From: Prorocentrum cordatum
Taxonomy: Eukaryota; Sar; Dinophyceae; Prorocentrales; Prorocentraceae
DNA length: 64,000 nt
NCBI GenBank assembly: GCA_963575745.1
Contig: CAUYUJ010007224.1
Coordinates: 864,501-928,500, forward strand
Direction: 5' to 3'
The notes beneath the pieces are model-generated. The model was not told the origin of the DNA. It was given only the letters and a program-made list of their open reading frames with translations, and made no database searches. How positions within the stretch are numbered: position 1 is the first letter of the stretch; each line of letters starts with the position of its first letter. Below, one piece after another: positions 27,528 to 61,383 of the stretch. The position numbers and the translations under genes are program-made.

Positions 27528-27600
27528 GTCATCAACGACTTCGTGGCCCAGGGCTACGGAACTCTCACCCTCCGGGCGGACGAGAAGATCCACATCTACG
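27528..27600 (+). CDS. Glucokinase exon a (VINDF motif)
   Basis: 73 nt: 24 codons plus one base. Reads VINDFVAQGYGTLTLRADEK then IHIYG. The Asn-Asp pair of INDF is the catalytic base region of Glk. Acceptor GTGGCAG; donor appears to be GA (TACG before GAGGGG), the only choice that keeps phase with the next exon. Confidence 0.85.
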
Positions 27601-28084
27601 GAGGGGCTCGGCGGTCGCAGCAGAGTGCTGCGCCCTGCCCTCTCCCGAAGGGAGGGTGGCAGGGCGGAGGAGCCGGAGGAGAGGGCAGAGGAGGGGCGGG
27701 AGGAGGGCGGAGAGGAGAGGGGGAAGCAGGAGGAGGAGGAGCAGCAGGAGGAGGAGTAGGACGACGACGACGACGACGACGGCGACGGCGACGAGGACGA
27801 GGACGAGGAGCGGGAGGGGGAGTGACAGCGGGAGAAGGAGGAGGTGGACGGGGTAAGAAAAAGAGGAGGTGAACGGGGCGGGAGCAGCGAACAGGGCGGG
27901 GGGCGGGGCAGGGATAGCATGAGGGAGGGGGAGGCCGGATGACGCAATGCTTTTTTTTTTTTCCTCTCTCTCTCTCTACATACTACATATATGTATCCCT
28001 CTCTCTATCCGCCTCTCTCTCTCTTTATGTATTTTTCTCTCTCTCTCTCTCTTTTTCTCTCTCTCTCTCTCTCGCCCCTGTCTC

Positions 28085-28116
<32 letters not shown>

Positions 28117-28468
28117 ATTCTGACTCTCTCTTTCTCGCTGAGGGGAGGGGGAGGGGGGCATGATGAGGAGGAGGGGGAGAAGAAGGGGGAACGAAAGGGA
28201 GAAGGGTGCAGGGAAGCGGGAAGGGGACATAGCAAGAGCAGGATGAGGACCAGGAGGAGGAGGAGGAGGAGGAGGAGGAGGAGGAGGAGAGGAGGAGGGG
28301 GGAGGAGGAGGAGGAGGGGAGGAGGAGGGGGAGGAGGAGGAGGAGGAGAGGGAGGAGGAGGAGGAGGACAAGGAGGGGGGATGAAGGAGGAGAGGAGGAG
28401 GAGGAGGAGGAGGAGGAGGAGGAGGGCATTGTCCTTGCCCCCCCCCCCTCCCCTCGGGGCGGCGGCAG
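27601..28468 (+). other. Glucokinase intron, 868 bp of simple repeats
   Basis: Holds GGA/GAC tracts (about 27700-27860), a CT-rich (CT)n tract (27951-28135) and a (GGA)n tract (28230-28435). Ends CGGCGGCAG. Confidence 0.75.
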
Positions 28469-28569
28469 GCCCCAAGACCGCCCTCAGCGGCGCGCCGATC
28501 GCCTGCATCGGCGCCGGCACAGGCCTGGGGCAGTGCTTCCTGACCGCGGACGCGGAGGGAGAGTACACC
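28469..28569 (+). CDS. Glucokinase exon b (GAGTGLG motif)
   Basis: 101 nt. Reads PKTALSGAPIACIGAGTGLG then QCFLTADAEGEYT. The GAGTGLG loop binds the ATP phosphates. Donor GC (ACC before GCCCCG). A 26-bp copy of its 3' edge recurs at 28788-28813. Confidence 0.88.
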
Positions 28570-28699
28570 GCCCCGGCCTCAGCCCGGCGAGCGCGTTCCA
28601 CTACTCGCAAAGTGCCTACACATTTTGAATTTCCAATTTTTCGAGAGTTCTTGATTTTTGTTTGGGGGGCCAAGATCCTTTCATGTCTAATTGTTCTGC

Positions 28700-28770
28700 G
28701 CTCCGCGCGCCAGGGGGTCCAGCGCCGATCCGAGAAAGCCGCGCGAACCTCTGAGTTGTTAGGTTCATTG
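28700..28770 (+). repeat. Short dispersed repeat (TCCAGCGCCGATCCGAG)
   Basis: Reads GCTCCGCGCGCCAGGGGGTC followed by CAGCGCCGATCCGAGAAAGC and CGCGCGAACCTCT. Closely similar segments occur at 47510-47570 and 50685-50735. Confidence 0.65.
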
Positions 28771-29882
28771 CTTGCTCCCCTGCAGGGGGGAGAGTACAGC
28801 GCCCCGCCCTCAGCGGCCCATCGAAAACAAAAAGATAGCGATGCCTGGTCGTCGCCGCATGGCGAAGTCCCCGTCGTGGTTCACATTCCGGGCCGTCGCC
28901 GGCTGGACAGCTGGCGAACCAGACTGATGACTATTCTCCACGACGAACCCGACGCGGCCCCGATGTGGGGAAAGTTGCCTCGCTCCGTCCCTCTCCTGCC
29001 TTTGGCATGGTGGCAGAACTCGCTCTAACGGCATCCCCGCTTAGGCATCCAATCGCCAGCGCAGACGTCCCCTGCATAGCCGCCGACGCAAACAAAAATT
29101 GCGCGGACGCTCCGGCGGCGTTGCCTGGCTTGGCGGGGCGTTGCTTGGCAGTGCTCGACGACCCTTGGGAGGCCCGCCTCACGCAACGGGACCACGGAAA
29201 ACCCGGAGCAACGCGGGCCCGCACAGGCCTGGCACGCACGGATTCTTCCACCACTGTTAAGGACGGCGTAATGATCGCGGGGGGGGGCGAGTAACCTTCG
29301 ACGGAGCGCCCCCGTGACCCCCCCCCCGCTCCGCCCCTCAGCGCGCGTCCGAAATTCTCCCCCCCCCCCCCCCCCTCCACTTGGCCCCCCAGGGATTCGA
29401 GCCTCAAAACTGCCATCCCCCCCGAAGCCCTCCCCGACGGCACGCGCCCCCCCCCTCAAACCCAAGGGGGGGCGATTAGTATCCCATCCAGAGTAGGCCC
29501 CCACGGCGGGGCTTCCAGCGCCTCCCCTGGCGCGCTGCGCGCGGGCCCAGCGCAGGTCCTCAGCTGGAAGGAGTGGCACCCATACCGCTACCGTTGCCTC
29601 GTTCTCGCTTTTCGGGGGGGTCCTGCCAGGCCTTCGTCGCCACCGCTGGGTTCACTTCACACATTTGGTCAGAACGCACCCCGGGAGAGGTCGAACGGTC
29701 ATGCCGATTCATTTTCTCATTGCTCCCCAGAGTTCGAGGCACGCTTTGCACGCACGAAGCCAATTATTCAGGACGGCGCCTGGGCAATCGCCAGGTGCAA
29801 GGAGTGCATTAATGACAAGGACCGGGGGGAAGGGGGAAGGGCTGACAGGCATGTACACATGGGATGATGTGCGGATGCGGGT

Positions 29883-29931
29883 CCGTTGCCATGTTGGCTC
29901 AAGCCATTTTGGCCCAAGCCGTCGGCTCGAG
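29883..29931 (+). other. Tandem array of three relict spliced leaders
   Basis: The first unit (29883-29903) is a full-length leader with two mismatches (CCGTTGCCATGTTGGCTCAA plus G). The second (29904-29918) is CCATTTTGGCCCAAG, the 15-nt leader remainder after its internal TAG, with one mismatch. The third (29919-29931) is a shorter CCGTCGGCTCGAG remnant. This full-plus-truncated order is what repeated rounds of mRNA retroposition and renewed trans-splicing into the relict AG produce. Spacing has no gaps. Confidence 0.8.
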
Positions 29932-30960
29932 TTTCGGGCCCAGCGGCCGGCACGAGCAGCTTGGCGCGCGCGGGCCGCGCGAGATGGTGCGGCGCTGACC
30001 GGGCTTGATTGCAGCAGGGCAGCCGTGCCGTCGCGTGGCAAGTGGGCGGGAAGACGTGGCTGTGCATCTGCATCCCCGCGGGCTGGGGGTGGAGCCCCCA
30101 CGCAACCCCAGTCGCGCCCGGAACCGGGAACGCGTGGGGATGCGCCCTTGGCATCCGTGGGCCGCGCCCGCACAGGGGGGCCCAGCGACGCTGCATGCGG
30201 CTGCACCTAATGAGGCGTGGAACCCCTCGGCAGCGCTGGCGCTGACTCCGAAGGGTGCGAAGCCGTCGGCGGCCCCTGGCTGAAGGGCTGCCCCGCCCCC
30301 TGCGCAGGCCCGACCAGGCTCGAGGTCATCTCTCGGGGGGGGGGGGAGGTGCCGGCGATGGTGCCGAAGGCGGCTGCGCTGCGCCCGGCCCCGCAGCCCC
30401 CCCCCAGCAGGCGGGGGGGGGCGCCGCTGCGCGGGCGGGCGGAAGCGGCGTCCCCCTTGGGGAAGGCCGCGCCGAGGCGCCCGAGCGAGCGCGCAGCCCG
30501 CGGGCTGGCACTTAGGGGCCGGCTGCGGCGGCCAGTGGGCGTCGCTCGCGTTGGCGCAGCGCGCGCTCGAGCATCCCCGGCGCCCAGGCGCCGCGGCGCC
30601 GGCCCGGGCGGGGGGCCCGCCGCCGCCGCGCCCGCCGATGCAGCCCCGCGCGCGGACGCCCCCAGGTTCCCTGGGGGAGTGCGGGCGCACCGAGCTCTGC
30701 GTGGTAGATCTAAAATGTTTAGACGTGGTTGAGATGCGATCGGGCCTTGGCGCGGGCGAGAGGCCGTTCGGATCCATTGTTCTGCCGCGAGCGCGCAATG
30801 GATATGCATTTCGGATGCGTCCCCCCGGTGTGCACGAGAGCGCCTCCGTATTCAAACACTTCTATGCTTCAAGCATATCTGAACATTTTGGCCCGTGTCT
30901 TTTTCCACCTCGCCCCAGCAGCCGCAGCAGTCACCAGGGCGCCCGAGGAGGAGGAGGTTG
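29932..30960 (+). other. GC-rich sequence after the SL array; coding status unclear
   Basis: An intron-acceptor-like TTGATTGCAG at 30010 precedes a short readable stretch (GSRAVAWQVGGKTWLCICIP). The remainder is extremely GC-rich and open on both strands. It may be the body of the retroposed transcript, but I cannot follow one frame. Confidence 0.3.
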
Positions 30961-31032
30961 GCCAGCAACTACGACGAGTACCACCAGCACACGGCGATCC
31001 TGAAGAGCGACGGGTTTGTGCAGACGCTGTGA
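30943..31032 (+). CDS. Orphan exon with stop, nested in the glucokinase intron
   Basis: After acceptor CACCAG the frame reads GRPRRRRLASNYDEYHQHTA then ILKSDGFVQTL and TGA at 31030. From 30961 almost every codon ends in G or C, a strong coding sign here. Either a terminal exon, or it splices through a GA or GT donor before the stop to the exon at 31672. Protein not recognised. Confidence 0.4.
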   Translation, partial: PRRRRLASNYDEYHQHTAILKSDGFVQTL

Positions 31033-31671
31033 TGCAATGTTCAGGTTTGCTTTGATTGCTCCTCCCTTCCCTCCTTCTCCGCCTCTCCGTGTAATTTTGT
31101 GCATGGGCAGCGTGTGTGGGCTTAGCTCACGGCCGCGTTTGGCCGACCCCACGGGCCACTTCGCGTCGCCCTCGGCTCGTCTTCTCGTCGCCGGATGTCG
31201 GCCCTCCGATGCTGCGGGGCACGGCTGTGCCTCATCACCGTAGTTATTTCATGTACAAACTTTGGCGAGTGCTTGCGCCCAAACCTGTATCTCCCGCTTT
31301 TGCGGCTTGCCTGTCTTGCCCTTTTCCTCCTCCGTCCTCCTCCCTCTTCTTGGTGTCTTCTCGCCCCCTTCTTTTCTGCCCGGTTTCACCAGATGTGGCG
31401 GATCCAATCGAGACGCTTCTTCTTTATCTTGAGCTGGGTTCCAAACAGAGCTCGAAGCTGTCTGGGCGACAACATTGGTTCATTTCAAGCATACGACTTT
31501 TTCGACCGGCGTAGATGCTGCAGGGTAATCCACAGCAGCCGCCGCGGTGTGGCGTTGCGTGTTGACTCCATTTGTGCTGTCTCCCCCTTCCTCCCTCCTC
31601 CGCTGCGTTCCCCGCATGCACTTTGCTCCTGCGTGTTCCTCTTACCTGCGAGTGGTGCTGACGTAGCGCAG

Positions 31672-31761
31672 GCGTTCCGAGGCAGCGATTTCCCCCGCGC
31701 GTTGGAAGCATATGATCCAGGTGCTCGCTCCGTGATCCGAGGGCTGCGGAAGGTCATGTAG
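31672..31761 (+). CDS. Orphan terminal exon, nested in the glucokinase intron
   Basis: A pyrimidine-rich stretch and GTAGCGCAG precede 29 codons (AFRGSDFPRALEAYDPGARS then VIRGLRKVM) and TAG. AG/G acceptor, phase 0. Could be the last exon of a small nested gene together with 30943-31032. No family recognised. Confidence 0.4.
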   Translation, partial: AFRGSDFPRALEAYDPGARSVIRGLRKVM

Positions 31762-32816
31762 AGCAGACGCGGGCGAGGGGGAGAAACAACAATTGGCCCG
31801 TGTCTTCTTAAAAAGAAGTTTTATTCGTATTCATTTTTCCGAGCAAGCATCTGTCGCGCCGTATCTAGTCGCATCTAGATTGGCCAGAGCGGGCGCCTGT
31901 GGCGCTGCCCTCGGAGCGATGATTAGCGCGGCCATGATTAGCCAAAGGGGGGTTCAAGAAAAGCTGTAGCGATGATGCGTGAGGAAACGAACGGTAAGGG
32001 CTAAAGAGGACGACGAGGAGGAATGAGAGAGACAACAATGAGGCAACGATTAATGAAATGAGGGTTTGGGAAGGAACTGGGAGGGAATGGAGAATCGGGG
32101 GAGGAGGTGGAGGAGAAGGACGAGGAGGGAGGAAGACGAGGAGCGAGGAGGAGGAGGAGGCGGAGGTGGAGGAAGATGAGTCAGATCGGTAGATGCAGAG
32201 CGAAGAGGGTGGTGCGGGGTGCGGATGAAGTGGGTGATCAAGTGCGAGGAGGAGCGAAGACGTTTTAGGATGAATGGCGGGGGAATTGATGACGACGATA
32301 CGATGAAGCAGGGGGAGCGGGAGCCAGATGGTGGAGAAAAGGACAAAGAGGGGGAGGAACAACGATACGGAGGATGATGGCAATGAGGAAGGAGCTGGAG
32401 GATATGGCATTACGCGGATGCGCGAGGAGGTAGCGTGAGGGAGGATGGGGGCTCCTCTTCTTCGTCCTTTTGGGCCTCGTGATCGTTCTGCTTGCACACC
32501 TTGTTCCCCCTATCCCACCTTCTCGTCTTTCCTCCTTGTCGCCGTCGCCCCGAACAGCATGTGCAACGTCTTCCGCGCTCGTTGTCGTTGAGCAGCCTCG
32601 GCGCGGCTGTGTATACACGGTGCCGTATATACTTGTATAGGGCTTTCCAGTTTCGATTGTCCATCTTGAAGGGCCATATCGAGCCGTGTCTAAACATCTC
32701 TGACCATATCTACCCGTATCTAAACATGGCACCGTGTCGAAAACAAATAAGACAACATAACGTTCCTGTGTGTTAAATTTGTGTTTAAAATTTAAGAAAA
32801 TGCACACGTATCTCCG

Positions 32817-32867
<51 letters not shown>

Positions 32868-33705
32868 CCAAACGGTATATAGTCGTATCGAATTCCATTG
32901 TACAGCCGTTGTAAGACGCATTCGATCCAGGGGCAAAGTTTAGATACCGCTGGGCCTTTCGGAATGCCGCTGCCGCCGAGGGAATGAACAACGAATTTCT
33001 ATTTTGGGATATGTCTTGCAGGGGGGCCTGCCGAGCGCAGCCCCGCGACGGGCGGCGCGGAGTTAGGCACGAACGCGCCCCCCAAGGCCGGCGACCCCGC
33101 AGCAGCGGGAGCAGCGGCAGCAGCGGCTCGAACACGGCGGCACGGGCGCACGAACGGCCCCGCGGGCGGAAGTTCCCGCGGTAGGGGCGTCTCTCGCGGG
33201 CAGTCCGCGCCGGGGGCGGCGGCGCGGCGGTGGCGGCGGCGGTTGCCCCGCACCGCAGCAGCAGCGGCGACCGCACCGACGAGAGCGCCAGTGGTTCCGA
33301 CCTAGGGTGATTCCGACAGCTCCCCGGCCGCGGCGGCGAGGACTCCAACGGCATTTCCGCCAGCGGCGGCAGCGCCTGGAGCAAGGGTTCCGACCGCAGC
33401 ACCGTTGGTGGCAGCAGCGCTGGGAGCAGGAGCTCCGACGGCAACGCCGCAGTACTTTACGGAGGCGGCAGCGTCGGGGGCAGGGCCTGGCGGCGGCGTG
33501 GCCGCCGCGGCGGACGGCGGCGCACTCAGCGCGCCGCGGGCGAGGCGCCCGCGGGGTCCGCAGGCGGCGCCCCCCGCAGTGGCGACGCTCAGGGCGAGCG
33601 GCCAGGGCTTCGCGGCCGAGGGGGTCGCGGGGGGGTCCCAGCCGCTAGGCGGTAGCCGCTGGCTTTCTCCGACGGCGAATCCGGCTAGACGCCGGCGAGC
33701 ACTCC
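31762..33705. other. Intronic spacer with (TA)n and Ala-rich GC tract
   Basis: A perfect (TA)n run lies at 32819-32866. 33000-33700 is very GC-rich with repeated GCAGCAGCG and GCTCCGACGGCA words, translating as Ala/Gly/Pro-rich sequence with stops. No gene is called. Confidence 0.5.
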
Positions 33706-33811
33706 ATGGATCGCGAGTACGACGGGCTCGACTGGGCGCGGCTTGAAGGCCAGCAAGACCCGACTGGCGCACCAGGCAACGCAGCCCCGACGACTCCCCG
33801 GGGCAGGGCAG
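33706..33811 (+). CDS. Possible first exon of a small nested gene
   Basis: ATG in CACTCCATGG context opens MDREYDGLDWARLEGQQDPT and ends at a strong donor CAG/GTCTGTGAG in phase 1. The orphan exon at 37130 begins in the matching phase (G plus AT gives Asp). Joined, the product would be about 80 residues. Pairing is inference from phase only. Confidence 0.3.
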
Positions 33812-34257
33812 GTCTGTGAGCTGGAGCGCCCGGGCCAGGCGGAGAAGCGCGGGCCCGCGGTCGCCGCAGTCGCGACCCCGCCGCGGGCGCGGGGCCAGGC
33901 GGCCTCTGCATTAACCAGGGAGGCGGCGGCTCGGGGCATGACCTGGCCTCCGAGTAGGAGGCCGCCAGGCTCGCCGCCCCTCGGGCGGCAGTCACGAAAC
34001 CCGCGGGCGACGCGCGGGCCGCGGGCGCCCTGGGCGCCGCGACGGCAGCTCGCGCAGCCGCGGAGAAGGCTTAACAGTGGCCGCGGCCGCGGCCGCGGAT
34101 GCGGCAGCCGCGGAGGTTGCCGAGGAGCGTGGCCAGGGATAGCTTACTCCCGAACGACGCGGGCGCGACTCGTGACATTATGGACCTCCTGGCCCCCCCC
34201 CAACGCCATCGCAAGAGACGAAAAGACATGCCATCTACATTCTCCGATGCGAGGTCA

Positions 34258-34750
34258 ACGCGGAGGAGGAGGAGGGGGAGAGAGAGGAGCAGAAGGAGCA
34301 GGAGAAGGAAGACGAGGAGAAGGAAGAGGACGTGAACGAGGAGGAGGAGGAGAAGGAGGGCGAGGAGGGGACGGACACAGGTGAGGAGGAGGACGACGAG
34401 GACGAGGAGGGGAAGAAGGACGGAGAAGAAAAGGAGGAGGACAAGGAGAAGGAGGAGGAGGAGGACGAGAAGGAGGAGGAGGAGGAGGAGGAGCAGGAGG
34501 AGGAGGAGGAGGAGGGGGGGAGGAGGGGGAGGAGGAGGATGAGGAGGAGGAGGAGGACGAGGAGGAGAAGGAGGAGGAGGAGGAGGAGGTTCGGAGGAGG
34601 AGGAGGAGGAGGAGGAGGAGGAGGAGGTGGAGGAGGAGGGGGAGGAGGAGGAGGAGGAATAAGAGGATGAGGATCAGGAGAAAGAGGAGACGGAGGAGGA
34701 AAAGGAGATGAGGAGGAGGATGAGGAGGAGGAGGAGGAGGAGGAGGAGGA
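34258..34750. repeat. (GGA)n tract joined to R3 copy A
   Basis: Nearly 500 bp of GGA/GAG/GAC triplets on the + strand, running straight into R3 at about 34750. Poly-Glu and poly-Gly frames here are artefacts. Confidence 0.9.
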
Positions 34751-35418
34751 CCTGTGCAATCCCAGGAACCGTCGACGATGCTTGAATAAGTCCTGCCTCC
34801 AAGCTTCGTCTTCCTAGGCCCGCAGCTGGGTTCATTTCCATTGAGGGAACTGCTTCGTTGGAAGACAACCGTTTGAAGACCCTGAAGCATGCCAAAACAT
34901 TGTTCTCGGGATGTCATCGCCACGGGTCAACCTGACTGTTGCGTCTTGACGATCCCGAACCGCGCCAGAACGCCATCCTTGGGATGTCAACACCGCGAAT
35001 CAACGTAATTGTTGCGCCCCCATAATCCTGAATCCGTCCAAAGCAAAATGTCTGGTACGCTGGTTCTGGAAATCCTTTAAACCCTTGCAACTGTTAAAAA
35101 CGGATGTGCGCGGCGCTCAGGCGACAGCTACATTCTGAAAAGGAGCCGCACTCAGTCCGTAAGGCTATTGCGGCACTAGGGCGACAGCCACATTCTGACA
35201 ATCATTCGCCTTCAATCCGTGAAATTCCGGCAAAGTTTGAAAACGAATGTGCACCGCCCTAGAGCGAGAGTCACATGTTGAAAACCACCCGCCTTCCATA
35301 TGTGAAATTGTTGCCAACGTTTGAGCTTCAAGGCCAAACATTGTTAGGAAGTCTCAGGCGAAACGCCCTGCCCGCCCTAAAAGCTGGCCTCGGGGTGTGA
35401 CAGGGAGAAGTTATGTCA
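34750..35418 (+). repeat. Interspersed repeat R3, copy A
   Basis: Starts CCTGTGCAATCCCAGGAACC. It continues through GAGGGAACTGCTTCGTTGGA and GCATGCCAAAACATTGTTCT, then CAACCTGACTGTTGCGTCTT and a minisatellite of about 76-bp units (GTGCGCGGCGCTNAGGCGAGAGCCACATG). It ends AGGAAGTCTCAGGCGAAACG and GGCCTCGGGGTGTGACAG. Copies B and C have the same order. Confidence 0.85.
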
Positions 35419-36245
35419 AGACACCCTCCAGATAGCAAGCCGTCTAGTTCACTCCCACCCGCCCTCCCAACACATAAGTAACACCCGAGCCTGAGCATGT
35501 TCTGCGGTCGTCTTTTGATGGGCAGCTACTGGGAACCAAAACCGAGCCCATGTGCGCGACGCTGGGGCTAGGTGCGCCACGCGTGCCAGGCGCGCCACGC
35601 GCGCCGGGCCCCCCTGGGGCCCGAGCGTGCCAGGCACGCCTAGTGCGCCATATGCTCCCTCCAGCCGCGTCAGGTGCGCCACGTCCGGGGCACGTGCAGA
35701 GTGTGTCAGGTGCGCCTGCGCACATGACAGCACACATCGGGAAACATGTCGGCCCCCACCATCCCTGTCGAAAACCAGTGCCCATCATTATGTCTGGTGG
35801 GTCTGCGCACAGCAGGCCATCCACCACCACCCCCGCCGTCCCTGACAAAAACCACTTGACAGTGATCGCGGGGTGGCCGCGCACTATCCAAATTTAGCCG
35901 CGAGGTGTATTTTGTATTGTGTTTGTCAGGGATGGTAGCCCTGCGCGCAGCAGGCAATATGCTGACACCACCGCCGTCCCTACCGAAAAACAATACAAAG
36001 TGCCCGTGGGCCTCACGAACATGACTACAGACTTTGCCCCAAACTGTGCTGTGTTTTGTTTTTTCCCCACATCCAAAGTGGGGTTCTTGTTTTCTCTGGA
36101 CACCCCGCGCAGGACCAGGAACACACACACACACACCCACTCACACTCTCTCATCATCAACCTCATCAGCATATTCGATGATGCTCTCTCACATTCTTAG
36201 TCACTCACATACTCATCATCATCACTCGCACTCTCTCACACGCTC

Positions 36246-36250
36246 ACGAA

Positions 36251-36314
<64 letters not shown>
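36246..36314. repeat. (ATC)n microsatellite
   Basis: About 23 ATC triplets, within a broader CATCAT/CACTCA-rich region (36110-36440). Confidence 0.9.
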
Positions 36315-36450
36315 GGCATCGGCATCGGCATCATCCTCATTCAAACATCATCATCGCCACCACCACTCACAATCAATCATCATCCTCTTCACCACTCATC
36401 TTCACCACCACTCATCATCCTCATCCTCATCATCGTTGAGTAAATTGTGA

Positions 36451-37152
36451 GGAAGTCTCAGGCGGGAGCCCCCTCCCTATGGGGCCCGCAGATCATGTTG
36501 GTAATCCGAGCGGGTCATCGGGATCCTGTAACTGTCGTCACTTTTGAGCTCCCCAGGCCTGAAAATGGAGGAAGTCTCAGGCGGGAGCCTCGTCTGTGAG
36601 TGAATTGGGAGGAAGTCTCAGGCGGGAGCTCCCTCCCTATGGGGCCCGCAGATCATGTTGGTAATCCGAGCGGGTCATCGGAAACCTGTAACTGTCGTCA
36701 CTTTTGGGCTCCTCAAGCCTGAATTTGGAGGAAGTCTCAGGCGGGAGCCTCGTCTGTGAGTGAATTCTGAGGAAGGCTCAGGCGGGAGCCCCTCCCTATG
36801 GGGCCCGCAGATCATGTTGGTAATCCGAGCGGGTCATCGGAACCCTGTAACTGTCGTCACTTTTGGGCTCCCCAGGCCTGAAAATGGAGGAAGTCTCAGG
36901 CGGGAGCCTCGTCTGTGAGTGAATTGGGAGGAAGTCTCAGGCGGGAGCTCCCTCCCTATGGGGCCCGCAGATCATGTTGGTAATCCGAGCGGGTCATCGG
37001 AACCTGTAACTGTCGTCACTTTTGGGCTCCTCAAGCCTGAATATGGAGGAAGTCTCAGGCGGGAACCTCGTCTGTGAGTGAATTGGGAGGAGGTCTCAGG
37101 CGGGAGCCCCCTCCCTATGGGGCCCGCAGATCATGTTGGTAATCCGAGCGGG
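36451..37152 (+). repeat. 159-160-bp tandem repeat (five units) carrying a splice acceptor
   Basis: Units start GGAAGTCTCAGGCGGGAGC at 36451, 36611, 36771, 36930 and 37089. Each contains GGGGCCCGCAG followed by ATCATGTTGGTAATCCGAGC. Units 1-4 continue with TCATCGG and CTGTAACTGTCGTCAC. The fifth breaks off at 37152 and continues into coding sequence. The unit's first words (AGGAAGTCTCAGGCG) are shared with the 3' end of R3. Confidence 0.9.
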
Positions 37153-37266
37153 CCGCCGGCGCCCCTGCGGAAGGCGCTCCTGGAGTTCGACAAGAGAGCG
37201 GTTTTGTCCAGGGCGGAGGCGAAGCAGCTCGCGGCAGAGCTGGGTTTCGTGCTGCCTTCCGCCTGA
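37130..37266 (+). CDS. Orphan terminal exon whose start lies inside the tandem repeat
   Basis: After CCCGCAG the frame reads (D)HVGNPSGPPAPLRKALLEF then DKRAVLSRAEAKQLAAELGF and VLPSA, TGA at 37264. The C-terminal part (37153 on) has strong GC3 and a typical helical charge pattern. The first eight codons come from the repeat unit, so the acceptor itself has been multiplied. Alternatively the exon starts at an internal AG nearer 37150. Confidence 0.45.
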
Positions 37267-37783
37267 GCGCGGCTGCGCCTCGCTCGAAGCCCGCGGGGTT
37301 GTCCCAACGGCTTGGTCTTGCGCGCCAACGGCTCGCGGGGTTGTCCCGACAGCCTGGCCCGCGGGGTTGTCCCAACGGCTGCGCGACGTGACCAGTAGAG
37401 AACGCGCCTGTGCTGGCCGTGGCGGCGACGGCGCCGAGGAACATCGACATGCGCGCTCATGCAACAGGAAGGGGAGGAGGTGGCGGGGCGCGGAACAAAC
37501 AGGGGGGCGAGGATGGGGACAACGTAAGGAGTGGAAGGGGGGCCCGCGCCAAGGCGACAGGAAATATACGCAGAAGAGACAGCCAGGACGCCTCACCAAC
37601 CACGAGGACGACGGTGATGGTTTTTTTTCCAGATTCGCCCAGAGGATTCTTATGTGGGGTTCTTCCGTCGGAGTAATTGACAGGGATGGCGGGGGGGGGG
37701 GGGCGCATCGGGTTGGTGCGCATGCTCCGAATTTGGAAGCAGAGAACGGTTTGTGTGTATTATATATATAAATATATATATAT

Positions 37784-37814
<31 letters not shown>

Positions 37815-45951: not shown

Positions 45952-46001
<50 letters not shown>

Positions 46002-49470: not shown

Positions 49471-49471
49471 G

Positions 49472-50226: not shown

Positions 50227-50439
50227 TTGCTTATAAGGAGAAGCGGAGGAGGAGGAGAGAGGGAGGGAGGCGCGCGGATGCGCCGATGCTGATCGCAGTT
50301 AGGCCTGGCTGGGGAGCCGCCGCCGTCTCGACGGGCCCTCGCACGACCACCGCGCATCGCTCGCGCGTGCCCTTCATCGCCGCGCCACTGAGCAGCCTCG
50401 TGTCCCTCTTCGGTCGAAGAAGAAACAACTCGGAGGTTG

Positions 50440-51167: not shown

Positions 51168-51347
51168 ATGTGCGTGTGTGTGTGTGTGTGTGTGTCTGTG
51201 TGTAGTGTGTGTCTGTGTGTCTGCGTGTCTGCGTGTCTGCGTGTCTGTGTGTGTGTCTTTGTGTGTCTGTGTGTCTGTGTGTGTGTGTCTGTGTGTCTGT
51301 GTGTCTGTGTGTATGTGTGTCTGTGTGTCTGCGTGTGCGTGTGCGTG
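51168..51347. repeat. (TGTGTGTCTG)n microsatellite
   Basis: Alternating TG with regularly spaced TC steps over about 180 bp. Confidence 0.9.
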
Positions 51348-51556
51348 AACGCCGCCGCAAAAAGTTCCTCGTGAGCGTTTCGGAACGGGTTCGCTCCCCC
51401 CTCCCTGCGCAGCGGCATCGGCCGTCCTCACAGGCCGCCGCGCCTCGCCCGACGCGCAGCCGCGCGGCCAGGGCCGACGCGGGGCCGAACCCTTCCGGAG
51501 GTCGGAGAGAGCGGGAGGGAGGGCCGCCCACTCTCTAGTAGCACCCACGTTCCCCC

Positions 51557-51666
51557 TCCTCCTCCTCCTCCTCCTCATCCTCCTCCTCCAGCCTCATCCT
51601 CCTCCAGCCTCCTCCTCCTCCTTCTCCTCCTCCTTCTCCTCCTCCTCCTCCTCCTCCTCCTCCTCC
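51557..51666. repeat. (CTC)n tract
   Basis: Pyrimidine triplets over about 110 bp. Confidence 0.85.
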
Positions 51667-52877
51667 AACCCGTCCCTTGTCAGGCTGTCTATCCCTTCTG
51701 CCTCCCGTCCTCGTCCCTCGGAGCTCGGCCCCCAGGAGACGGTTTCCCCGTCGATTCTAACAAGTTTTTGTTGCGTCGACGGGGGGCTGGGGCAAGCAAG
51801 CCAGAAGCAACAGTACAAGCGGAGTTGCTCGAGAATCGAAGACGCCCGCAGGGTTTGCCATGGGTGCGCCGCGTGGGCAGCTTCGATTACTTCCTGGGGT
51901 CAGGTATCCCAATATGCACTTCTAGGTTCCACGAGGACGCTGCATCCATCCTGCTCCTGGAGCTCTTATTCGCAGACGTCTGTCTGAAGTTTCGTTCCGC
52001 ATTGCTTCGACAAGCGTTGCGTTTGCATCGCTTTGGCGCTCGTTGCATCTCATTGCGGTTTCTATCACTTCCACATGGGCTGTCTATGCACTGCGTTTCG
52101 TTACATTGCGTCGTGCCGCGTAGCACTTGACAGTGTTGCGTTGCAGTGCCTGGAATTGTGTGGGCCCACATTGGAAAGCCATCGAGAAGTCATTGGAACG
52201 CCATTGGGGAACCATTCACAAACCTTCGGAACACCATTGGGAGACCGCTGAGAAATGATTGGAAAACACTTTGAAACCATTAATGAACAATTTGGGGAAA
52301 ACATAAGGGAGCCTCAATGGCAAAATGGGCGGGGGGGGCATTCTGAACCAATGTGAGGAAGCTTCGCTAGAACTCGAAGGCGAGCTTATTCGGAGAAAGC
52401 AAAGCGGATTTCACGCCCTAACAGCCTCTTGCGCTTGCACTCGGGGGGGGGCGGCGAGAATCACGCGAGTCGAAAGGCACTTCTTGCACGCTAGTACTTG
52501 CGTAAAGAGGGGTGAGGGCGGGGGGGGGGAAGGAGGAAGAGTAAAAAGAAAAGGAGGAGGAAGGAGGGAAGAGGATGGGGGGGGGGGGGGGCAAACGCCA
52601 TGCAAGTAAACTTGCCTGAGTCCAGAGAAAAAAACCGTCTCTGGGCCGTCCCCCAGGCTGTGCGGCGTGCCCCGAGCAGAGTCCCGAGGGGAGCCGGGCA
52701 CCCCGGCGACGGGAGGCGCCCGGGCCAGAGGCCCCTGGAGGAGCGGCGGATACCCAGACCCCCTGAAGCTAGGGAAAAATCACGACGGGAGGTTTTCATC
52801 AGAGTGAAGGGGCCGAACGGTCATTCCTTGTCCTTGGGTGCGTGGCTGAAGTGAGAATCCGTGGTGAGGATTATGCT

Positions 52878-53117
52878 TGTTGCGTTGTTGTTGTTGTTGT
52901 TGTCGTCCTTGTTGTTGTTGGTGGTGGTGGTGTTGTTGTTGCTGTTGTGATTGTTGTTGTTGTTGTTGTCGTCGTTGTTGTTGTTTGTTGTCGTTGTCGT
53001 TGTCGTCGGTGTTGTTGTTGGTGGTATTGTAGTTGTCGTTGTTGTTGTTGTTGTTGTTGGTGGTGTTGATGTTGGTGTTGTTGTTGGTGTTGCTGTTGTT
53101 GTTGTTGTTGTTGTTGC

Positions 53118-53194
<77 letters not shown>

Positions 53195-53295
53195 GGCGTC
53201 GTTGTTATTGTCGTCGTTGTTGTTGGTGGTGGTGTTGTTGCAGCTGTTGTTGCTGCTGTTGTTGCTGTGGTTGTTGTTGTTGCTGCTGTTGAACG
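52878..53295. repeat. (GTT)n tract
   Basis: About 415 bp of GTT with GTC, GGT and GCT variants; the longest non-GGA triplet tract apart from 58805. Poly-Val, poly-Leu and (minus strand) poly-Asn frames are artefacts. Confidence 0.92.
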
Positions 53296-54192
53296 CTCAT
53301 TTCTGAATAATATTTTTTGTTGATCCCCCCCCACCGGTGCATACTGTTCTTTCTCAATCAAAGTGTGCCCCTCGACACTCGCACCCTGTTTTTTTGACAG
53401 GGGATGTCTTGATGCTCAAACTGGGCCCCTGGCCCCCGGGTTACAACAACAACGGCTCCCGCCTGGGACCATCACAGATCGATCAGGCTCGAAAGATGCA
53501 GCAGACATATGGGGGGTCTCGGTTTCAGGGCTCCTTCCTGTCGTGATCCTTCGCGAGGTTGTGATTTTTGTCGCAACGTCGGATCTCGAGGTGAGATGAG
53601 GGCGAGGCGAGGCAACGGCAGGTTGGCCTTGGGGAGGCCCGTTATTGCTACGGCTGGACGATTTGGACCCCGGGAGGGGGTCCGGGGACAGATTCCGAGC
53701 TGTCGTTGGCTCAGCTCGCCCGGCTCCGAACTGGGGACGGGGACCGCCGGCAGATCTTGTCCGTTCACCGCAGCCGTTGGCAGTGCAGTCGGACCGAGGC
53801 ATAAGATCGAGGTCGGCTCGGGGAGGGTATGCCCTCCTGTTCTTGGTGCTTGTAGGATGTTCTCGCGCATCCTCAGGAGGGTGCCCTTGGATGTTATGTT
53901 GTTTGTTGGGGGGCTGAGGGTCTCGAGAGTCTTGGAAGACGTTCTTCTGGCCCAGGTTCGACCGTGCCTCTCGGCAGCGTCTGGGTGAGTGCCCGTGCGC
54001 CGAGGGAGCAACGGGCGTTTGGGCTCTGACTTCTGCTGCGCTGCCCTGAGATTTGCCGATGGGCCTGTTTTCCACCACCACCACCACAAGTAGGAGGGGG
54101 AGGGGGTCCTCCTCCTCCTCTTCCTCCTCCTCCTCCTTCTCCTCCTCCTCCTCCGCCTCCTCCTCCAACTGCTTCCCCCCTCTAATTTATGG

Positions 54193-54264
54193 TAGTGGTG
54201 GTGGTGGTGGTGGTGGTGGTGGTGGTGGTGGTGGTGGTGGTGGTGGTGGTGGTGGTGGTGGTGG
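54193..54264. repeat. (GGT)n microsatellite
   Basis: About 24 perfect GGT triplets flanked by copies of CCTGTTTTCCACCACC in inverted arrangement (54065 and 54262). Confidence 0.9.
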
Positions 54265-54780
54265 AAAACAGGCCCATCATTTGTCCATGCTCCTATCTCT
54301 GTTGAATTAGGACTCGCTGCTGGTGCTTCCGCGGAAGTCGCCCACGCGAGGCGGGAAGTCGCGTGCCCAACGGCGGCCGCAGGGAAGGAATCGTCCACCC
54401 CTCCCCCTGCTGTTCGGAAGACCTTCCGATGTCTCTGGAGGCGTCCCGAGGCAAAGGGGAGCCAAGCACGCGGGGAGAATGTCCAACTTATTGCCCCTAG
54501 CGAGCATTGTCGATTTCTTCCCTTTCTTTCTCCGCTTGATATTAGCCTTGTTCGTGCCGCCCGATGGGGACAAGACATGGGCTCATAGTCAGAGAGCCGA
54601 CCCTTTCACCCGAGTCAGCGCTGTAATTACCGAGTTGTGGAGCGCGAGGGCAGGGCTTGCCCGCCACTTTTGGGCAGCATGCCGTGTCCAAAGGTAACGT
54701 AAAGCAGCGATTACGAACACACACACACACACACTAACATTCATCATTCGTCGTCGACCTCTTGTTTGTGTGTCCGGGAG

Positions 54781-54836
54781 GTCCACAGCGAGTACCTGGC
54801 GTCGAGAGAGAACGCGGGCATCGTCGCCCAGAACGC
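54781..54836 (+). CDS. Glucokinase exon f
   Basis: 56 nt. Reads VHSEYLASRENAGIVAQN plus GC. Acceptor TCCGGGAG, donor GC (AACGC before GCGGCC). Split codon GC+G gives Ala with exon g. Continues from exon e as IDKK-VHSEYLAS. An (AC)n run lies 47 bp upstream. Confidence 0.8.
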
Positions 54837-56187
54837 GCGGCCGGGGACGCTGCCGCCACCACCCACCGATGCCCTTGTGCGCGACAGGTCGGGGTCCAGG
54901 ACTATCTAGACGCGATCTGTGGCGAACGGGGTCGCGGTAATTATCCGGGGGCCCGCGTCACGAACCAAATCGCGACGCTGGAGGTGTGGTGGGAGCATCC
55001 GTAGAGCGAGGCGCAGAGCAGCCAGGGGCGAGGTCAGCTGGGCACCGCGCTGGCAACACCCCCATGGAGGGTCGCACCGCCGGTCCCCGGGCCAGCCTGG
55101 CAAGAGAGAGCCGTCCAGTGCGGGTCCCAGTCCTCAGCCCTTGAATGGTGGGAGCCCAGCCCACCGCACACCTCACGCGCGAGAGCCCGCTGTCCGGCAC
55201 GCCCCTCCCCGCGTCGAAGCGCCTCAGACAGCGTGAAGGGTGCGCGACCACACCGCGCCTCGTGGGTCCCGCGACCTCAGCGAGGGCGGAGGGTCCTCGC
55301 TCTGCGGCAAGCTTGCGGAAGTGAGGTGAGAGGAGGAGGAGGAGGAGGAGGAGGAGGAGGAGGAGGAGGAGGAGGAGGAGGAGGAGGAGGAGCAGCAGAA
55401 AGCGGAAGGAAGAGGAAGAGGAGTTGAATAGAGAGACTAAAGCGTCCCACCAGTCGATGAAACGCCTGGCGACCGCGGCGGGATGTGCCTCCGAGAGGCG
55501 ATCATAATTTCGACCACTCCAGGGCCTCGCAGACCCGAAGCGCCCTGGGGACCTCACCACCTCAGGCCTCCCAAGGACGGACTTTCGGAGCCGCCTTGCA
55601 AGGCAACTGGCCTGTTAGCTGCTGCTCCAGCTGGTGCTAGCGGGCCGAGCCGAGTCGTGACCTCATGCCGCGAACTTGCCGGTGCCGAGCGCGAGGTAGC
55701 TTGTCACTCGACGGGCTTACCGATGCCGTCGTCCAAGAAAATGGGCGGTGACGGGCGCGCCTGTCTGGCACCAGGCTCGGCCGCCGCGAGCCAGGCCGAA
55801 GTCCCCACCGAGGCAGCAGCCGCGCGTGACTCACACGCTCATGGCACCACTCATCCAGGGCGAGAAGCGGCGGGAGCCATCGCCTCCGAGACGCCTTACG
55901 CGACTGCGCCGAGGCGGGCCAGCTCCAGGCGCCGAGGCGGACTTTGTGACCTCTGAGCGGGCGGCGGCCAAGCGCCGAGCAAGCATGCTCGCGCACAAAC
56001 CTGCTCGCGGCCGACGGGGTCGAGCGTCGTCCGTGGCCCAGGCCGGGCCATCGGGGCGGCCGCAGGGCCCATCTTGTCGGAGAACCCCTTGCGGCACAGC
56101 TTCGCAATCTCCATCCAGCACGACGTGCAGCAGCAGCAGCAGCAGCGGCAGCGGCAGCAGCGGCAGCAGCGGCGCTGCCGGCTCCGT

Positions 56188-56500
56188 CTACGTGATGGCC
56201 ACGCTCGCGGCGATCTTCGGCAGCACGTGCGCAACCCTCAGGGTCGTGAGGTCCAGAAGGGCCGCAACCGCCAGCAACCCTATGCTCAGCGACAGGCCGC
56301 TGAAGACCCTCAACTCCATCAGGCCGACGCGCCAGCTCAACGAACGCATCATCCCTACGATCTCCCTCCAGGCCTCCTGTGCCAGGTACCTCTGCGTCAT
56401 GGCCACACTCATGGCGAGCTCCGCCACCATGTTCGGCGCTTGCAGGGCAAAGTGGACCCCGACCACCAGCATCGCCATGCCAGACCCTTGCCACACGGGC
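56188..56500 (-). CDS. Possible minus-strand exon of a membrane protein
   Basis: The minus strand reads MAMLVVGVHFALQAPNMVAE, then REIVGMMRSLSWRVGLMELR, LSIGLLAVAALLDLTTLRVA and HVLPKIAASVAIT before TAG at 56188. Codon choice is natural with about 85% GC3 and one good hydrophobic segment is present. The + strand is also open in this GC-rich region, so this is only a candidate. A second minus-strand frame (EIAKLCRKGFSDKMGP, about 56075-56125) could be a following exon. Confidence 0.3.
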
Positions 56501-57524
56501 CGCTGAACTCCCTCGGCACTGGCACGCTGACGCCCTTGCTCCGCGAGCGCCAGGTGCAACGCGCGACCGGGCCGCGGCAGTTCCTGGCCGCTGTGCGCCG
56601 CGGTCTCCGCGAACACCCTAGGTCGCGAGGTGCTGGGCAGCGCGGCCCCTGCGCCCGCGAGTATGGCGCGCGGCCCTCCGCGGCCGACCCCTTCGGGCGG
56701 CGGCCACGCCGCAGCCCATGCATCTGGTCCATCCCGCGGCGAGGGGGGCGAGGGGCGGGGGGCAGGGAGGTGAGATGACCGAGGGGCCCCAGGGCGGCGC
56801 GCAGGCGCCGTGGCGCCGTGGCGCGGGCTCGGGATCCCAAGATAGGGCCGAGCTGGCAGTCAGGAGGAGGAGGAGAAGGAGGAGGAGGAGGAGGCAGAGA
56901 CAGAGACGGAGACGGAGACGGAGACGTAGGATGAGCCGGCGGAGTTGAAGTAGGAAGAGGAAAAGAAGCATCAGGAGATGGAGGAGGAGGAGGAGGAGGA
57001 GGATCCTAGGGATGGAGGAGGAGGAGGAGGAGGAGGAGGAGGAGGAGGAGGAGGAGGAGGAGGAGGGAGGAGGGGGAGGAGGAGGAGGATCCGAGGGATG
57101 GTGTCGGGGGCTCCGTTGTGCAGAAGTTGCGCTCTGCTCCTCGGGGCTCTACTTCTGCCACGACGGATCCACCGGGTCTCCTCAGTGACGATGTCGGCTT
57201 CCGCTTTGGGTGTGCACGTAATTCGTCCTCATTTCCTTCCTTCACGCTCCCTCAGCTCTCTCCTATTCTCCCCGGGAATCGACTGTCTAGTCGAGCGTCG
57301 CGGCTCCAACCCTCCTGACCGTTTGCGGGTCCCGTCCAGTCCTGTGGGGGCATCGGGGGAACGTGGGGAGTCCGCGCACCTTCCTTTCTTTCCTCGAGCC
57401 CTGGCACAGTTCAAGGCTGGCCACTGCGAAGATGACACCTGGGAAGGGCAACAGCAATGGACAGCACGGCACAGAGCGGCACGTCACTGCACCGCGCAGC
57501 ACGCCGCAAGATTCGCCAAAGCAG

Positions 57525-58020
57525 GAAGTGGAGGAGGATGAGGAGGAGGCGGGGGAGGAGGAGGAGGAGGAGGAGGAGGAGGAGGAGGAGGAGGAGGAGG
57601 ACGAGGAGGAGGACGAGGAGAGGGAAGAGGAGGAGGAGGAGGAGGAGGAGGGAGGAGGAGGAGGTGGAGGTGGACGAGAAGGTGGAGGTGGAGGTGGAGA
57701 AGGAGGAGGAGGAGGAGGAGGCGGAGCGGAGGAGGAGGAGGAGGAGGAGGTGGACACAAGGAGGTGGAGGTGGAGGAGGAGGAGGAGGAGGAGGTGGAGG
57801 AGGAGGAGGAGAAGGAAGAGGAGGGGAGCAGGATGAGGAGGTGGAGAAGGAGGAGGAGGAGGAGGAGGAGGAGTAGGAGGAGGAGGAGGTGGAGAATGAG
57901 GAGGAGGAGGGGGAGCAGGAGGTGGAGGAGGAGGAGGTGAAGAAGCAGGAGGATGAGGAGGTGGAGAAGGAGGAAGAGGTGGAGAAGGAGGGGGAGGAGG
58001 AGGAGGAGGAGGAGGAGGAG
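57525..58020. repeat. (GGA)n tract with GGT interruptions
   Basis: About 500 bp of purine-rich triplets including GGAGGTGGA. Confidence 0.9.
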
Positions 58021-58804
58021 CCAGGATGGGCATGTCCAGGTCCAGAGCCCGCGTGAAGTCGACATGCTCTCAGGTCGACCGCTGTTGCCCCTGGAGCGGC
58101 CGAGCCGTGCTCCATGCGGCCGGCTCCAGAAACGCTCCTCGCTGTTCTAACCCTCCACTCCCTCCTCTTCCAGCTCCTCCTCCTCCTCCTCCTCCTCGGC
58201 CTCCTCGGCCTCCTCGTCCTCCTACCCCTCTCCTCCGCCCCCTCCCCCTCCTCCTCCGCTCTCCTCCTCCCCCTCTCCCCCTCCGCTCGCCGCTGGCAGG
58301 ATGAACAACAAGCCACTCGGCAATCGGCAAGCTGAAAGCCGCAAAGCCGCAAAGCCGCAAAGAGCCTAATACGGCGGGAAGCAGCTAACAATTCGCACCG
58401 CTGAACGAGCCGAGTCCAGCAAATTTCTGTCAAACCCAGCCCCACCATTCCGCCGTGTCAACTTCTCCTCGTCGTCCTCTTCTGTTCTTGTCCTCGAACT
58501 TCTTCCTCTTGATTCCGCTTCCCTCTCCGTCCCCACGTTTTGCTCGCTGTCGTTAACGTTGTCCTGGTCGTATTCTGTTTAGCATACCATTGTTCCAACG
58601 TAGAAAAATGGTAGCATCCCGCAGCATCCCACGGCGGCCGGACTTTGGAGAGATGCGGGGGGGCTAAATGTGCAAGCTATGGGGTGCAAACCACTTTGAC
58701 TGACTTGAAGCTGTCCTCTCCACTGCTCGTGCAAACATCCCACCCTCCCACCCGCAACTTGGTCGCAAGACCTCTTAAGACCGTGACGGTCGGTGGGTAC
58801 CAAA

Positions 58805-59057
58805 TGGCACTTGGCAACGACAGCGACGCCGACGACGACAGCGACAACGACGACGACGACGCCGCCGACAACGACTACGACGACACCGACGACGTCTCCA
58901 ACGACTTCGACGACGCCGACAACGACGATGACGACGACAACACCGACGACGACGACGCCGACGCCGACGACGACGACGACGATCACAACGACGACGACGA
59001 TGACGACGCCGACGACGACGACAACGACGACACCGACGACGACGACGTCAACGACGC

Positions 59058-59102
<45 letters not shown>

Positions 59103-59620
59103 CGGCGACGACGACGACGCCGACGACGACGACGACGACGAAGACGACGACGACGACGACGCCGACGCCGACGACGACGACGAAGACGACGACGACGTCG
59201 CCAATGACGACGACGACGACGAGGGAGGAGGGATGACGACGACGGCGACAATGACGACAACGACGACAACGACGAGGGAGGAGGGAGGACGGCGACGACG
59301 CGAACGACGAAGAAGGAGGAAGGACGGCGACGCCGACGACGACAGCGACGAGGGAGGAGGGAAGACGACGACGACAGCGACGACGACGACGACGGCGACG
59401 AAATAGGAGGGACGACGGCGAGACGCCGACGACGGACGACGACGACGACGAGGGAGGAGGAGGAAGGACGACCACGGCGACAACGACGACGGAAACGACC
59501 ACGACGCCAAAGAGGAGGACGACGACGAATACGAGGAAAGACAGAGGACGACATAGGCGACGACGACGACGACGCGGGAGGAGGGAGGACGGCGACGACG
59601 ACGACGACGACGCAAGAGCG
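58805..59620. repeat. (GAC)n tract
   Basis: About 800 bp of GAC/GCC/AAC triplets with short GGAGGGAGGA interruptions. Poly-Asp, poly-Thr and poly-Arg frames are artefacts. Confidence 0.95.
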
Positions 59621-60090
59621 CGCGCGCACGCTTTGATTTGTTGAAAATCCGTGTTGCGAAACTTTGTGTCTTTGTAGGTTTTTTGGACACACGATGTTGA
59701 AATCCTTCCGAAGCCGATCGGTTTTGAAGGATTCCGGCATACGCGCGCGACGACGCGAGCGTCTGCATTTCGTCCCAGCTGTTGCAGAGGATTCTCGCGA
59801 CGGCACACGCGCAAGGGCGTCCGACTGATTTCGACATGCGCGCGCGAAGTCCGTTTGGTAGTATTTTATGAGAATCTTGAAAGACCCATGGTTTTGTTAA
59901 GATTTCGCAAGAGCTCGCGCGTAAGCTTTTTTAGCAAATCAGTGTTGCGAAACCCTGTGTCTTTGTATTTTTTGGAAGCTCGATTGCGAAGTCCTTCCGA
60001 CACCGACGGTTTTTGAAGGATCTCGGAATGCGCGCTCGACGACGCGCGCGTATGCACTTCGTCCCGTTTTTTGCAAGGGATTCGTGAACA
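59612..60090. repeat. Diverged direct repeat, two units about 310 bp apart
   Basis: GTGTTGCGAAACTTTGTGTC at 59652 recurs as GTGTTGCGAAACCCTGTGTC near 59942. CGACGACGCGAGCGTCTGCA then TTCGTCCC recurs near 60038. More AT-rich than the surroundings; no gene. Confidence 0.75.
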
Positions 60091-60339
60091 AATGCTATGT
60101 TCGAACAAAAGATGTCCCCGCGTATCCTTTTTTCAGAAGGGATCCTCAGGGGGAGCGATACCGGCCCCCCGGGGATAGTGTGAATTCATATTTAGGATGG
60201 ACATGTGGTCAGAATCATTTATGATTTACATACCCGAAAGGGGTACGGATAACGCCAGGGGGGGCGGGGGTAGAGTCGATCGTCTTTTTAGAAAGGAGAA
60301 CCGATGTGATATGAGCTACAGCCATCCCGCACAGTAAGG

Positions 60340-60560
60340 ATGTGCAACCTTCCCAAGGGTACCCTTGCACCCTCGCCTCCTCGGTTCATCCTTGGCCACT
60401 TCCGTTGGCCGCGCCCCGCTCGAGAAGCTTCAAAATGGGCGTCCAAGGCCCTTGCATCCTTATCGCGGATCCTTCTGATACGGGCCGACTGTATGTCGTG
60501 TCAGCCATGCGGAGGGGGCTGAATGTGCAAGCTGTGGGGTGCAAGCTGTGTGATATGATA
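60340..60560. repeat. Dispersed repeat (pair with 43160 and 58640)
   Basis: AAGGGTACCCTTGCA, GGGCGTCCAAGGCCCTTGCA match 43180-43275. GGGGGCTGAATGTGCAAGCT with GTGGGGTGCAA matches 58660-58690. Confidence 0.6.
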
Positions 60561-61310
60561 TACCGTCGAGGCGGCATGGTGGGTCGACCCTGCCACGTCA
60601 AGGGTGCTCGTGCGTCCTGCGTTCCGCGACCCATGCCTTTCTACATGACTGTGAAGTGGGCCTCGGACGGGTCCTGTGTCCTCTCGCGTGTCCTCTCCAA
60701 TCGGCCCCGACTGTGAGCTTCGCTGTGCAAGCCATGCGGTGCAAGCTGCGCGTGGCGCCGGCGAGGCGCCCGGCACGGGCGGCACGGGCGGCAGCGCAGC
60801 GGCCCGCAGCGCAGCCTCGGCGCATGCCCCGAGCGCAGGGGCACCCTCGGGGCGCCCACGAGGCGGCACCAGCGCGGCAACGTGGCGCCACCTCGGCAGG
60901 TTCCTCGAGCGCGGGGCGCCCGCGAGGCGCCCACGAGGAGGCAGCACCGGCGCGCAACGCGGCGAAGACCAAGAAGACCTGCCCAGGTGCGGGGCGGCGC
61001 GGGCGGCAGCGCGGCGCAACCTGGGCAGTCCCCCCAAGCGCGGGACGCCCACGAGGCGCCCACGAGGCAGCAGGGGCCCGCAGCGCGGCGGAACCCGGAA
61101 TCGCCAGCCGAGCAGTTGTCGAAACGAAGCAGGGCACCTGAGGTGCAGCCACTGTTTTGGGAAAGCGCATGCTGCTCATTCCGTCGCCGTTTCTGGATGG
61201 TCCCAGGGGTCCGAGACGGGCCTACCGGGGGCCCTGAAGTCGAATCACAGGCCGTCACGGAATTGTGTCTTGACGGTCGAGGCCCTGGGGGCTCGCCCTG
61301 CTTCGGCGAG

Positions 61311-61383
61311 GACCCTCTGCTACGAGACCCTCGAGATCTTTGCCGACTGCTACGGCGCAGTGTGCGGAACGTTCGCCCTGCAG
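61311..61383 (+). CDS. Glucokinase exon g (last one found)
   Basis: 73 nt. Reads (A)TLCYETLEIFADCYGAVCGT then FALQ, matching the alpha-helical Glk segment with conserved Cys/Tyr/Gly (bacterial [20 protein letters not shown]). Acceptor TTCGGCGAG; donor is GT (CTGCAG before GTCGCT), the only GT donor of the gene. The next exon should carry a GG-x-Y-x-x-GG motif and was not found before 64000. Confidence 0.82.

Follow-up and report, generated by a model that had tools for sequence, protein, structure and literature searches.

Glucokinases of the PF02685 family phosphorylate glucose with ATP, and in Escherichia coli the gene is one uninterrupted frame. In the dinoflagellate Prorocentrum cordatum CCMP1329, with a published assembly of 4.15 Gb in 22,724 scaffolds and a G+C content of 59.7%, genes average 24,462 bp, introns are long (4,709 bp on average), donors are GC, GA or GT (51.4, 23.8 and 24.7%, respectively), and 79.7% of acceptors are AGG (PMC10666404). 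Sections of the same paper describe how gene-prediction tools were adapted to GC and GA donors and refer to the trans-splicing of a leader in dinoflagellates (PMC10666404). According to a table in a further source, the longest intron measures 177,825 bp in Symbiodinium microadriaticum and 88,176 bp in Breviolum minutum (PMC7789003), and a passage of a review regards a 26,372-bp intron of C. cohnii as notable (PMC11453091).

Here we describe a window of 64,000 nucleotides of P. cordatum (contig CAUYUJ010007224.1, C7224 below, positions 864501-928500), in a genome assembly of 4,128,499,153 bases in 21,875 contigs, with the flanks examined out to 724501-1068500. A first-pass annotation made from the letters of the window had proposed seven short exons of a glucokinase within 34 kb. 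We conclude that these exons very probably belong to one nuclear E. coli-type glucokinase gene (PF02685) of the dinoflagellate, which is about four times longer than the part seen in the window. Its transcript is most likely a single, very long pre-mRNA, and its product is a predicted ATP-dependent glucose kinase.

Seven exons in the window

All seven exons were located where the first-pass annotation had placed them, and its 507-nt join was reproduced as an open frame of 169 residues. The annotation had suggested a search of this product against PF02685, and the match is clear (123.4 bits against a gathering score of 22.1; expect value (E) 1.3e-35; profile positions 95-249 of 314). The best four of eight glucokinase structures, including 1q18 (which we take to be the E. 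coli enzyme), match at E 3e-15 to 4.4e-15, and the proposed identity thus holds. A protein search with the join, in which candidates were only about 93-460 residues long, gave 945 proteins at E <= 0.001 among 1072 candidates. Among the 120 listed, the highest identities are those of P0005 (74%, covering 63% of the query) and P0001 (70%, covering 83%); the source of the two is 'merc'. The glucose-contacting residues had been described as intact, and the five that were checked (N99, D100, E157, H160 and E187) are each matched by the same residue when the product is aligned with glucokinase chain 9yrs. We assume that these are the glucose-contact and phosphotransfer positions in E. coli numbering. 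The motifs GAGTGLG (exon 2) and GGVTQK (exon 8) are present in the product of the longer gene model described below.

A hidden Markov model (HMM) of the family was built from the 120 listed relatives less two of <=140 residues (118 sequences) and scanned over both strands. Exons 1-5 and 7 score 12.8-45 bits, and the best match in the window other than the seven exons scores 4.1 bits. The best matches in 20 first-order Markov resampled windows range from 2.3 to 7.4 bits. By the HMM alone exon 6 is at noise level (4.4 bits), but it is backed by its phase, its place in the order and a tblastn match with P0005 (E 4.8e-5) in which the alignment runs through NARPGTL.

The end of exon 6 is the one boundary that we correct. 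It had been placed at 54836; read to 54845 (next bases gac) the exon keeps the frame and gains R-P-G, giving NARPG/TLC (the slash marks the exon boundary, here and below). Six aligned relatives have three residues at this point before a Leu-Cys motif (K/T-P-G in four of them), and the corrected exon equals them in length there. The bases following the seven ends first given are as reported (GA, GC, GC, GA, GC, GC, GT), but the sixth donor is GA, nine bases on, and the corrected order is GA, GC, GC, GA, GC, GA, GT. With three GC, three GA and one GT donor in the window, the claim that most of the introns start with GC or GA stands, as does the claim that the acceptors are all AG/G. The exons (60-101 nt) make up 516 of 33,856 bases, or 1.5%, the share originally estimated. 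The first-pass annotation was therefore right on the gene and on every boundary but one.

The gene beyond the window

The gene had been thought to lie within 27-61 kb of the window. It instead extends at least 25 kb upstream of the window and at least 57.6 kb downstream of it. In our contiguous model, 945 nt encoding 314 residues are spread over 146,579 bp in 14 exons (44-101 nt; letters denote exons upstream of the window), all on the + strand and in order (Table 1). The exons in the flanks were identified with the HMM and tblastn, and two more by phase and splice rules. One of these, exon D, was located by the pattern AG/GAYTGG (about 50 kb contain one other instance) and later matched by tblastn at E 1.65e-4; the other, exon B', is the best of 613 candidates.

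The encoded protein matches PF02685 at 246.8 bits, again above the gathering score, over profile positions 26-308 of 314, and matches 1q18 at E 2e-36. Its identity to P0121 is 75%, and the two differ in length at one point, by a single residue. P0121 comes from a 1.7-kb contig and is presumably a spliced transcript. The G+C content of third codon positions (GC3) is 0.93, versus 0.43 at second positions (GC2); that of the window is 61.3% and that of the 14-exon span 59.9%. A search of the whole genome with P0121 gave 18 matches at E <= 10, ten of which are exons of the model, all on the + strand and in order (E 9.9e-8 to 1.18). The remainder comprise four on contig C8258 (E 9.7e-4, 0.017, 1.55 and 2.85) and four elsewhere (E 1.35-9.83).

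An N-terminal exon with VLAADVGGTNSR was identified on the + strand near contig position 805,530, also in order, 34 kb upstream of the contiguous model and 59 kb before the window start; the exon linking the two was not found. Presumably, DxGGTNxR is the N-terminal phosphate-binding motif of the glucokinase family. Based on relatives of 414-460 residues, the full coding sequence may be 1.2-1.4 kb.

A further piece, FMLYLV at about -45697 (contig 818803), is in phase after an AG/G acceptor and would fit an earlier end of exon A, continuing the N-terminal exon. It is the only occurrence of [FL]MLY.V in 344 kb on both strands. We regard it as tentative and do not count it in the model.

Table 1. 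Coordinates of the glucokinase exons and introns and of associated features. Position 1 is the first base of the window.
Feature	Window coordinates	Contig C7224	Strand	Sequence and properties	Evidence
Three model exons upstream of the window		839513-839573, 840741-840785, 841821-841892	+		HMM, tblastn, phase, splice rules
Exon D	-21380 to -21324	843120-843176	+	DWIIDGPMLEERFGLQCIE; GC donor	
Intron D/1	from 21,323 bp before the window to 27527		+	48,851 bp, GC-AG, without N gap; window 1..27527 is its 3' part	
Exon 1	27528..27600		+	VINDFVAQGYGTLTLRADEKIHIY(G); equivalents of N99, D100; GA donor	HMM, tblastn, alignment
Intron 1/2	27601..28468		+	868 bp, GA-AG, with GAG repeats	
Exon 2	28469..28569		+	PKTALSGAPIACIGAGTGLGQCFLTADAEGEYT; GAGTGLG; GC donor	HMM, tblastn
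Intron 2/3	28570..40470		+	11,901 bp, GC-AG	
Exon 3	40471..40550		+	AFPSEGGHAEFAPRGAGNDETQIELL(R); equivalents of E157, H160; GC donor	HMM, tblastn, alignment
Intron 3/4	40551..44635		+	4,085 bp, GC-AG	
Exon 4	44636..44699		+	YLKVKFSGWNRISFERVVSGK; equivalent of E187; GA donor	HMM, tblastn, alignment
Intron 4/5	44700..48887		+	4,188 bp, GA-AG	
Exon 5	48888..48947		+	GICNTYEFLAYKNPGRIDKK; GC donor	HMM, tblastn
Intron 5/6	48948..54780		+	5,833 bp, GC-AG	
Exon 6	54781..54845 (corrected end)		+	VHSEYLASRENAGIVAQNARPG; GA donor	tblastn with P0005, frame, GA-AG, AG/G
Intron 6/7	54846..61310		+	6,465 bp, GA-AG	
Exon 7	61311..61383		+	TLCYETLEIFADCYGAVCGTFALQ; GT donor, the only GT among 13	HMM, tblastn
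Intron 7/8	61384 onward		+	51,741 bp as assembled, GT-AG; window 61384..64000 is its 5' part	
Exon 8	113125-113190	977625-977690	+		
Last two model exons		982175-982258, 986048-986091	+		
Duplication copies	66809-86633 and 86734-106637	931309-951133 and 951234-971137			
Ion-channel frame	-18400 to -16871	846100-847629	+	Ion_trans, EF-hand	Pfam

Splice sites and introns

The 13 introns of the contiguous model (868-51,741 bp) have six GC, six GA and one GT donor, and all 13 acceptors are AG before G, the pattern found in dinoflagellates; several boundaries outside the window were picked partly by this rule and provide no independent test of it. The first-pass annotation treated the GC and GA donors as an exception. 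This part of the claim is not supported, as the donor mix is normal for P. cordatum (PMC10666404). Under the published frequencies the chance of at most one GT donor is 13% for 13 introns and 45% for seven. Splicing would be carried out by the ordinary dinoflagellate spliceosome, accepting GC, GA and GT donors with AG/G acceptors.

An origin of the introns from introner elements was considered and is not supported. Direct repeats at the junctions add up to 44 bases; permuted pairs give 40.6 +/- 3.0, and the observed sum was reached in 1221 of 7324 permutations. As for terminal inverted repeats, the two ends of an intron match each other no better than the ends of different introns do, with the exception of B'/C. 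In this one of the 13 introns, purine and pyrimidine simple repeats face each other.

A second glucokinase locus

A diverged second glucokinase locus was identified on C8258 (240100-432200, at least 191 kb), with exons in four small pieces, all on the + strand. The intron before VINDF is at the same place and in the same phase as D/1, but is only 230 bp long and has a GT donor. The other visible intron positions differ: the locus appears to split PSE/GGH and continues without a break across the sites of introns 3/4 and 9/10. No intronless glucokinase copy was identified among the 54 candidates scored in the whole-genome search with P0121.

Given one intron position with 230 bp in one copy and 48,851 bp in the other, where a whole ion-channel frame has been taken in on the same strand, intron length might be nearly free in this nucleus. 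In the boldest form of this idea, which we consider improbable, the exon blocks would now be separate transcription units, with a further gene situated between them and with products joined in trans.

Assembly and putative genes within the long introns

The 14-exon span holds one gap of 100 N (window coordinate 86,634), and another gap lies between exons A and B. On either side of the first, inside intron 7/8, is one copy of a 19.9-kb head-to-tail direct duplication with 99.1% identity. The duplication looks like an assembly overlap and probably is one, in which case the true lengths would be about 32 kb for intron 7/8 and about 127 kb for the gene span.

Inside intron D/1 is an uninterrupted 510-codon frame on the + strand with Ion_trans (E 1.2e-27) and EF-hand domains. 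Contig C445 carries a copy of it, split into one piece of 97% and one of 96% identity, and more distant relatives are among 84 scored matches (9225 candidates). The P0121 search of the genome listed no glucokinase exon on C445. A further gene thus appears to sit between exons D and 1. The natural reading is that an intronless gene or a retrocopy was inserted into the intron, in agreement with the short intron at the D/1 place of the second locus. A search for a relic of the dinoflagellate spliced leader (<=3 mismatches) gave no match in the flank piece holding the frame.

Alternative readings

Several observations weigh against one intact gene. Intron 7/8 contains the gap and the duplication, intron D/1 contains the ion-channel frame, and between exons A and B, where the model is incomplete in any case, an Arb2 domain (E 5.5e-27) is encoded by a frame on the + strand (contig C7224 830265-831134). 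A start codon was not securely found in the flanks searched, and the 82 kb searched beyond exon 10 yielded no last coding exon. In three scans the exon between FMLYLV and LLTEKKY was not clearly above noise (a piece at -45695 scored 24.4, versus 23.6 for the best reverse-strand control). No transcript or protein of the same species is among the listed matches, the best identity being 74% for the seven exons and 73% among the proteins listed in a second search. The whole-genome search with P0121 missed model exons B, B', 1 and 10, and a search of the genome with the PF02685 family gave no match at E 0.001 (nine candidates scored), because none of the exons is long enough to stand out by itself in a genome of 4 Gb.

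The strongest alternative, although an unlikely one, is that three exon blocks (up to D, 1-7 and 8-10) form separate transcripts that are spliced together in trans, or that the blocks were misassembled. Between the blocks lie 48.9 kb and 51.7 kb, versus 0.9-11.9 kb for the other 11 introns. The first separation holds the ion-channel frame on the same strand and the second the N gap and the 19.9-kb duplication. The ion-channel frame is also expected if the exons up to D and exons 1-7 are separate units, and its discovery slightly weakens the case for a single gene and slightly raises that for a split one. Trans-splicing of a leader is, moreover, referred to for dinoflagellates in parts of PMC10666404. 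On the other side, the exons share strand and order, the 48.9-kb intron is without N gap, GC-AG and GT-AG sites are found at the ends of the two long introns, and a table in PMC7789003 has introns of 88-178 kb in other dinoflagellates. The intron at the D/1 place of the second locus, at 230 bp, is an ordinary cis intron there. The 97% copy of the channel frame on C445, where no glucokinase exon is listed, is the picture expected of an inserted gene.

Still less probable is a dead copy, with the working glucokinase elsewhere, for example on C8258. The existence of that locus and the lack of a same-species transcript among the listed matches fit a pseudogene, but the 945 nt are without stop or frameshift, all 13 junctions are in phase with accepted splice sites, the sugar-contact residues are kept, the contrast between GC3 and GC2 is strong, and only a single residue separates the length from that of P0121. 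That chance matches were strung together by eye can be dismissed: the exons are short and exon 6 barely exceeds the best other match in the window and falls below the highest resampled one, but the joined product has its PF02685 score, six exons exceed everything in the 20 resampled windows, the 14-exon model supplies the missing N- and C-terminal parts in order in the flanks (including exon D), and the P0121 matches in the genome fall on the same exons.

A single glucokinase gene is thus the reading that we prefer. The order and phase of its exons, its splice dinucleotides, its family membership and its sugar-contact residues are read from the DNA itself. From these we infer a single transcript, its actual splicing and the activity of the enzyme.

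Other frames and repeats

Runs of + strand open reading frames (ORFs) of about 170-420 residues occur in intron D/1 at window 4205-10364 and 17755-22216, with no Pfam match above the cut-off among those tried. Ten + strand ORFs of the window had no Pfam match above the curated cut-off, and two had matches below it. Seven further frames were searched in the flanks: two are above the cut-off (Ion_trans with EF-hands, and Arb2) and one is just below it (Methyltransf_3, 21.4 versus 22). The other five of the seven, three of them on the minus strand of intron 7/8, had no Pfam match above the cut-off.

A 79-bp tandem unit (10 copies, 93% matches) at window 63209-64000 reaches the window end, and a 159-bp unit (4.5 copies, 94% matches) lies in intron 2/3 at 36437-37152. 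On the + strand of window 1-64000, purine runs cover 3088 bases and pyrimidine runs 854. This bias is not general, as the corresponding values are 1160 versus 1561 in intron 7/8, 1840 versus 2267 downstream of exon 10, and 3312 versus 2244 upstream of exon A.

Comparison with known systems

The locus is a worked example of how easily dinoflagellate genes can be missed: its exons measure 44-101 nt, most of its donors are not GT and its introns reach about 50 kb. Two copies that share an intron position and differ about 200-fold in its length make testable how the spliceosome finds exons, and also how it handles another gene inside an intron. The metabolic meaning is limited to the presence of an E. 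coli-type glucokinase in this alga. None of the titles listed in literature searches concerns a Prorocentrum glucokinase gene, which is no proof of absence.

With the PF02685 structures named Glucokinase (1q18, 1sz2, 9yrs and 9pyu) the product shares a near whole-length profile match and the sugar-contact residues. Unlike the single frame of E. coli, the gene has at least 14 exons over about 127-147 kb. Among algal and dinoflagellate glucokinases, the model is 75% identical to P0121, 70% to P0122, 69% to P0125, 68% to P0126, 60% to P0145 and 47% to P0147 (P0121-P0125 and P0127 are from JGI contigs, P0126 from EukProt, P0145 from Symbiodinium sp. CCMP2592 and P0147 from Cylindrotheca closterium). 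Compared with introner elements, as described in parts of PMC10666404, PMC7789003 and PMC11453091, only intron B'/C shows a resemblance, through its simple repeats, and there is no overall excess of repeats. Non-GT donors, AG/G acceptors and long introns are already published features, and the gene is like other P. cordatum CCMP1329 genes in all three, while its G+C content is close to that of the published assembly (PMC10666404). It is a genuine dinoflagellate gene of an ordinary kind, but unusually long: with the 20 kb of likely duplication subtracted, the span of the 14 exons still equals about five average P. cordatum genes in length (PMC10666404).

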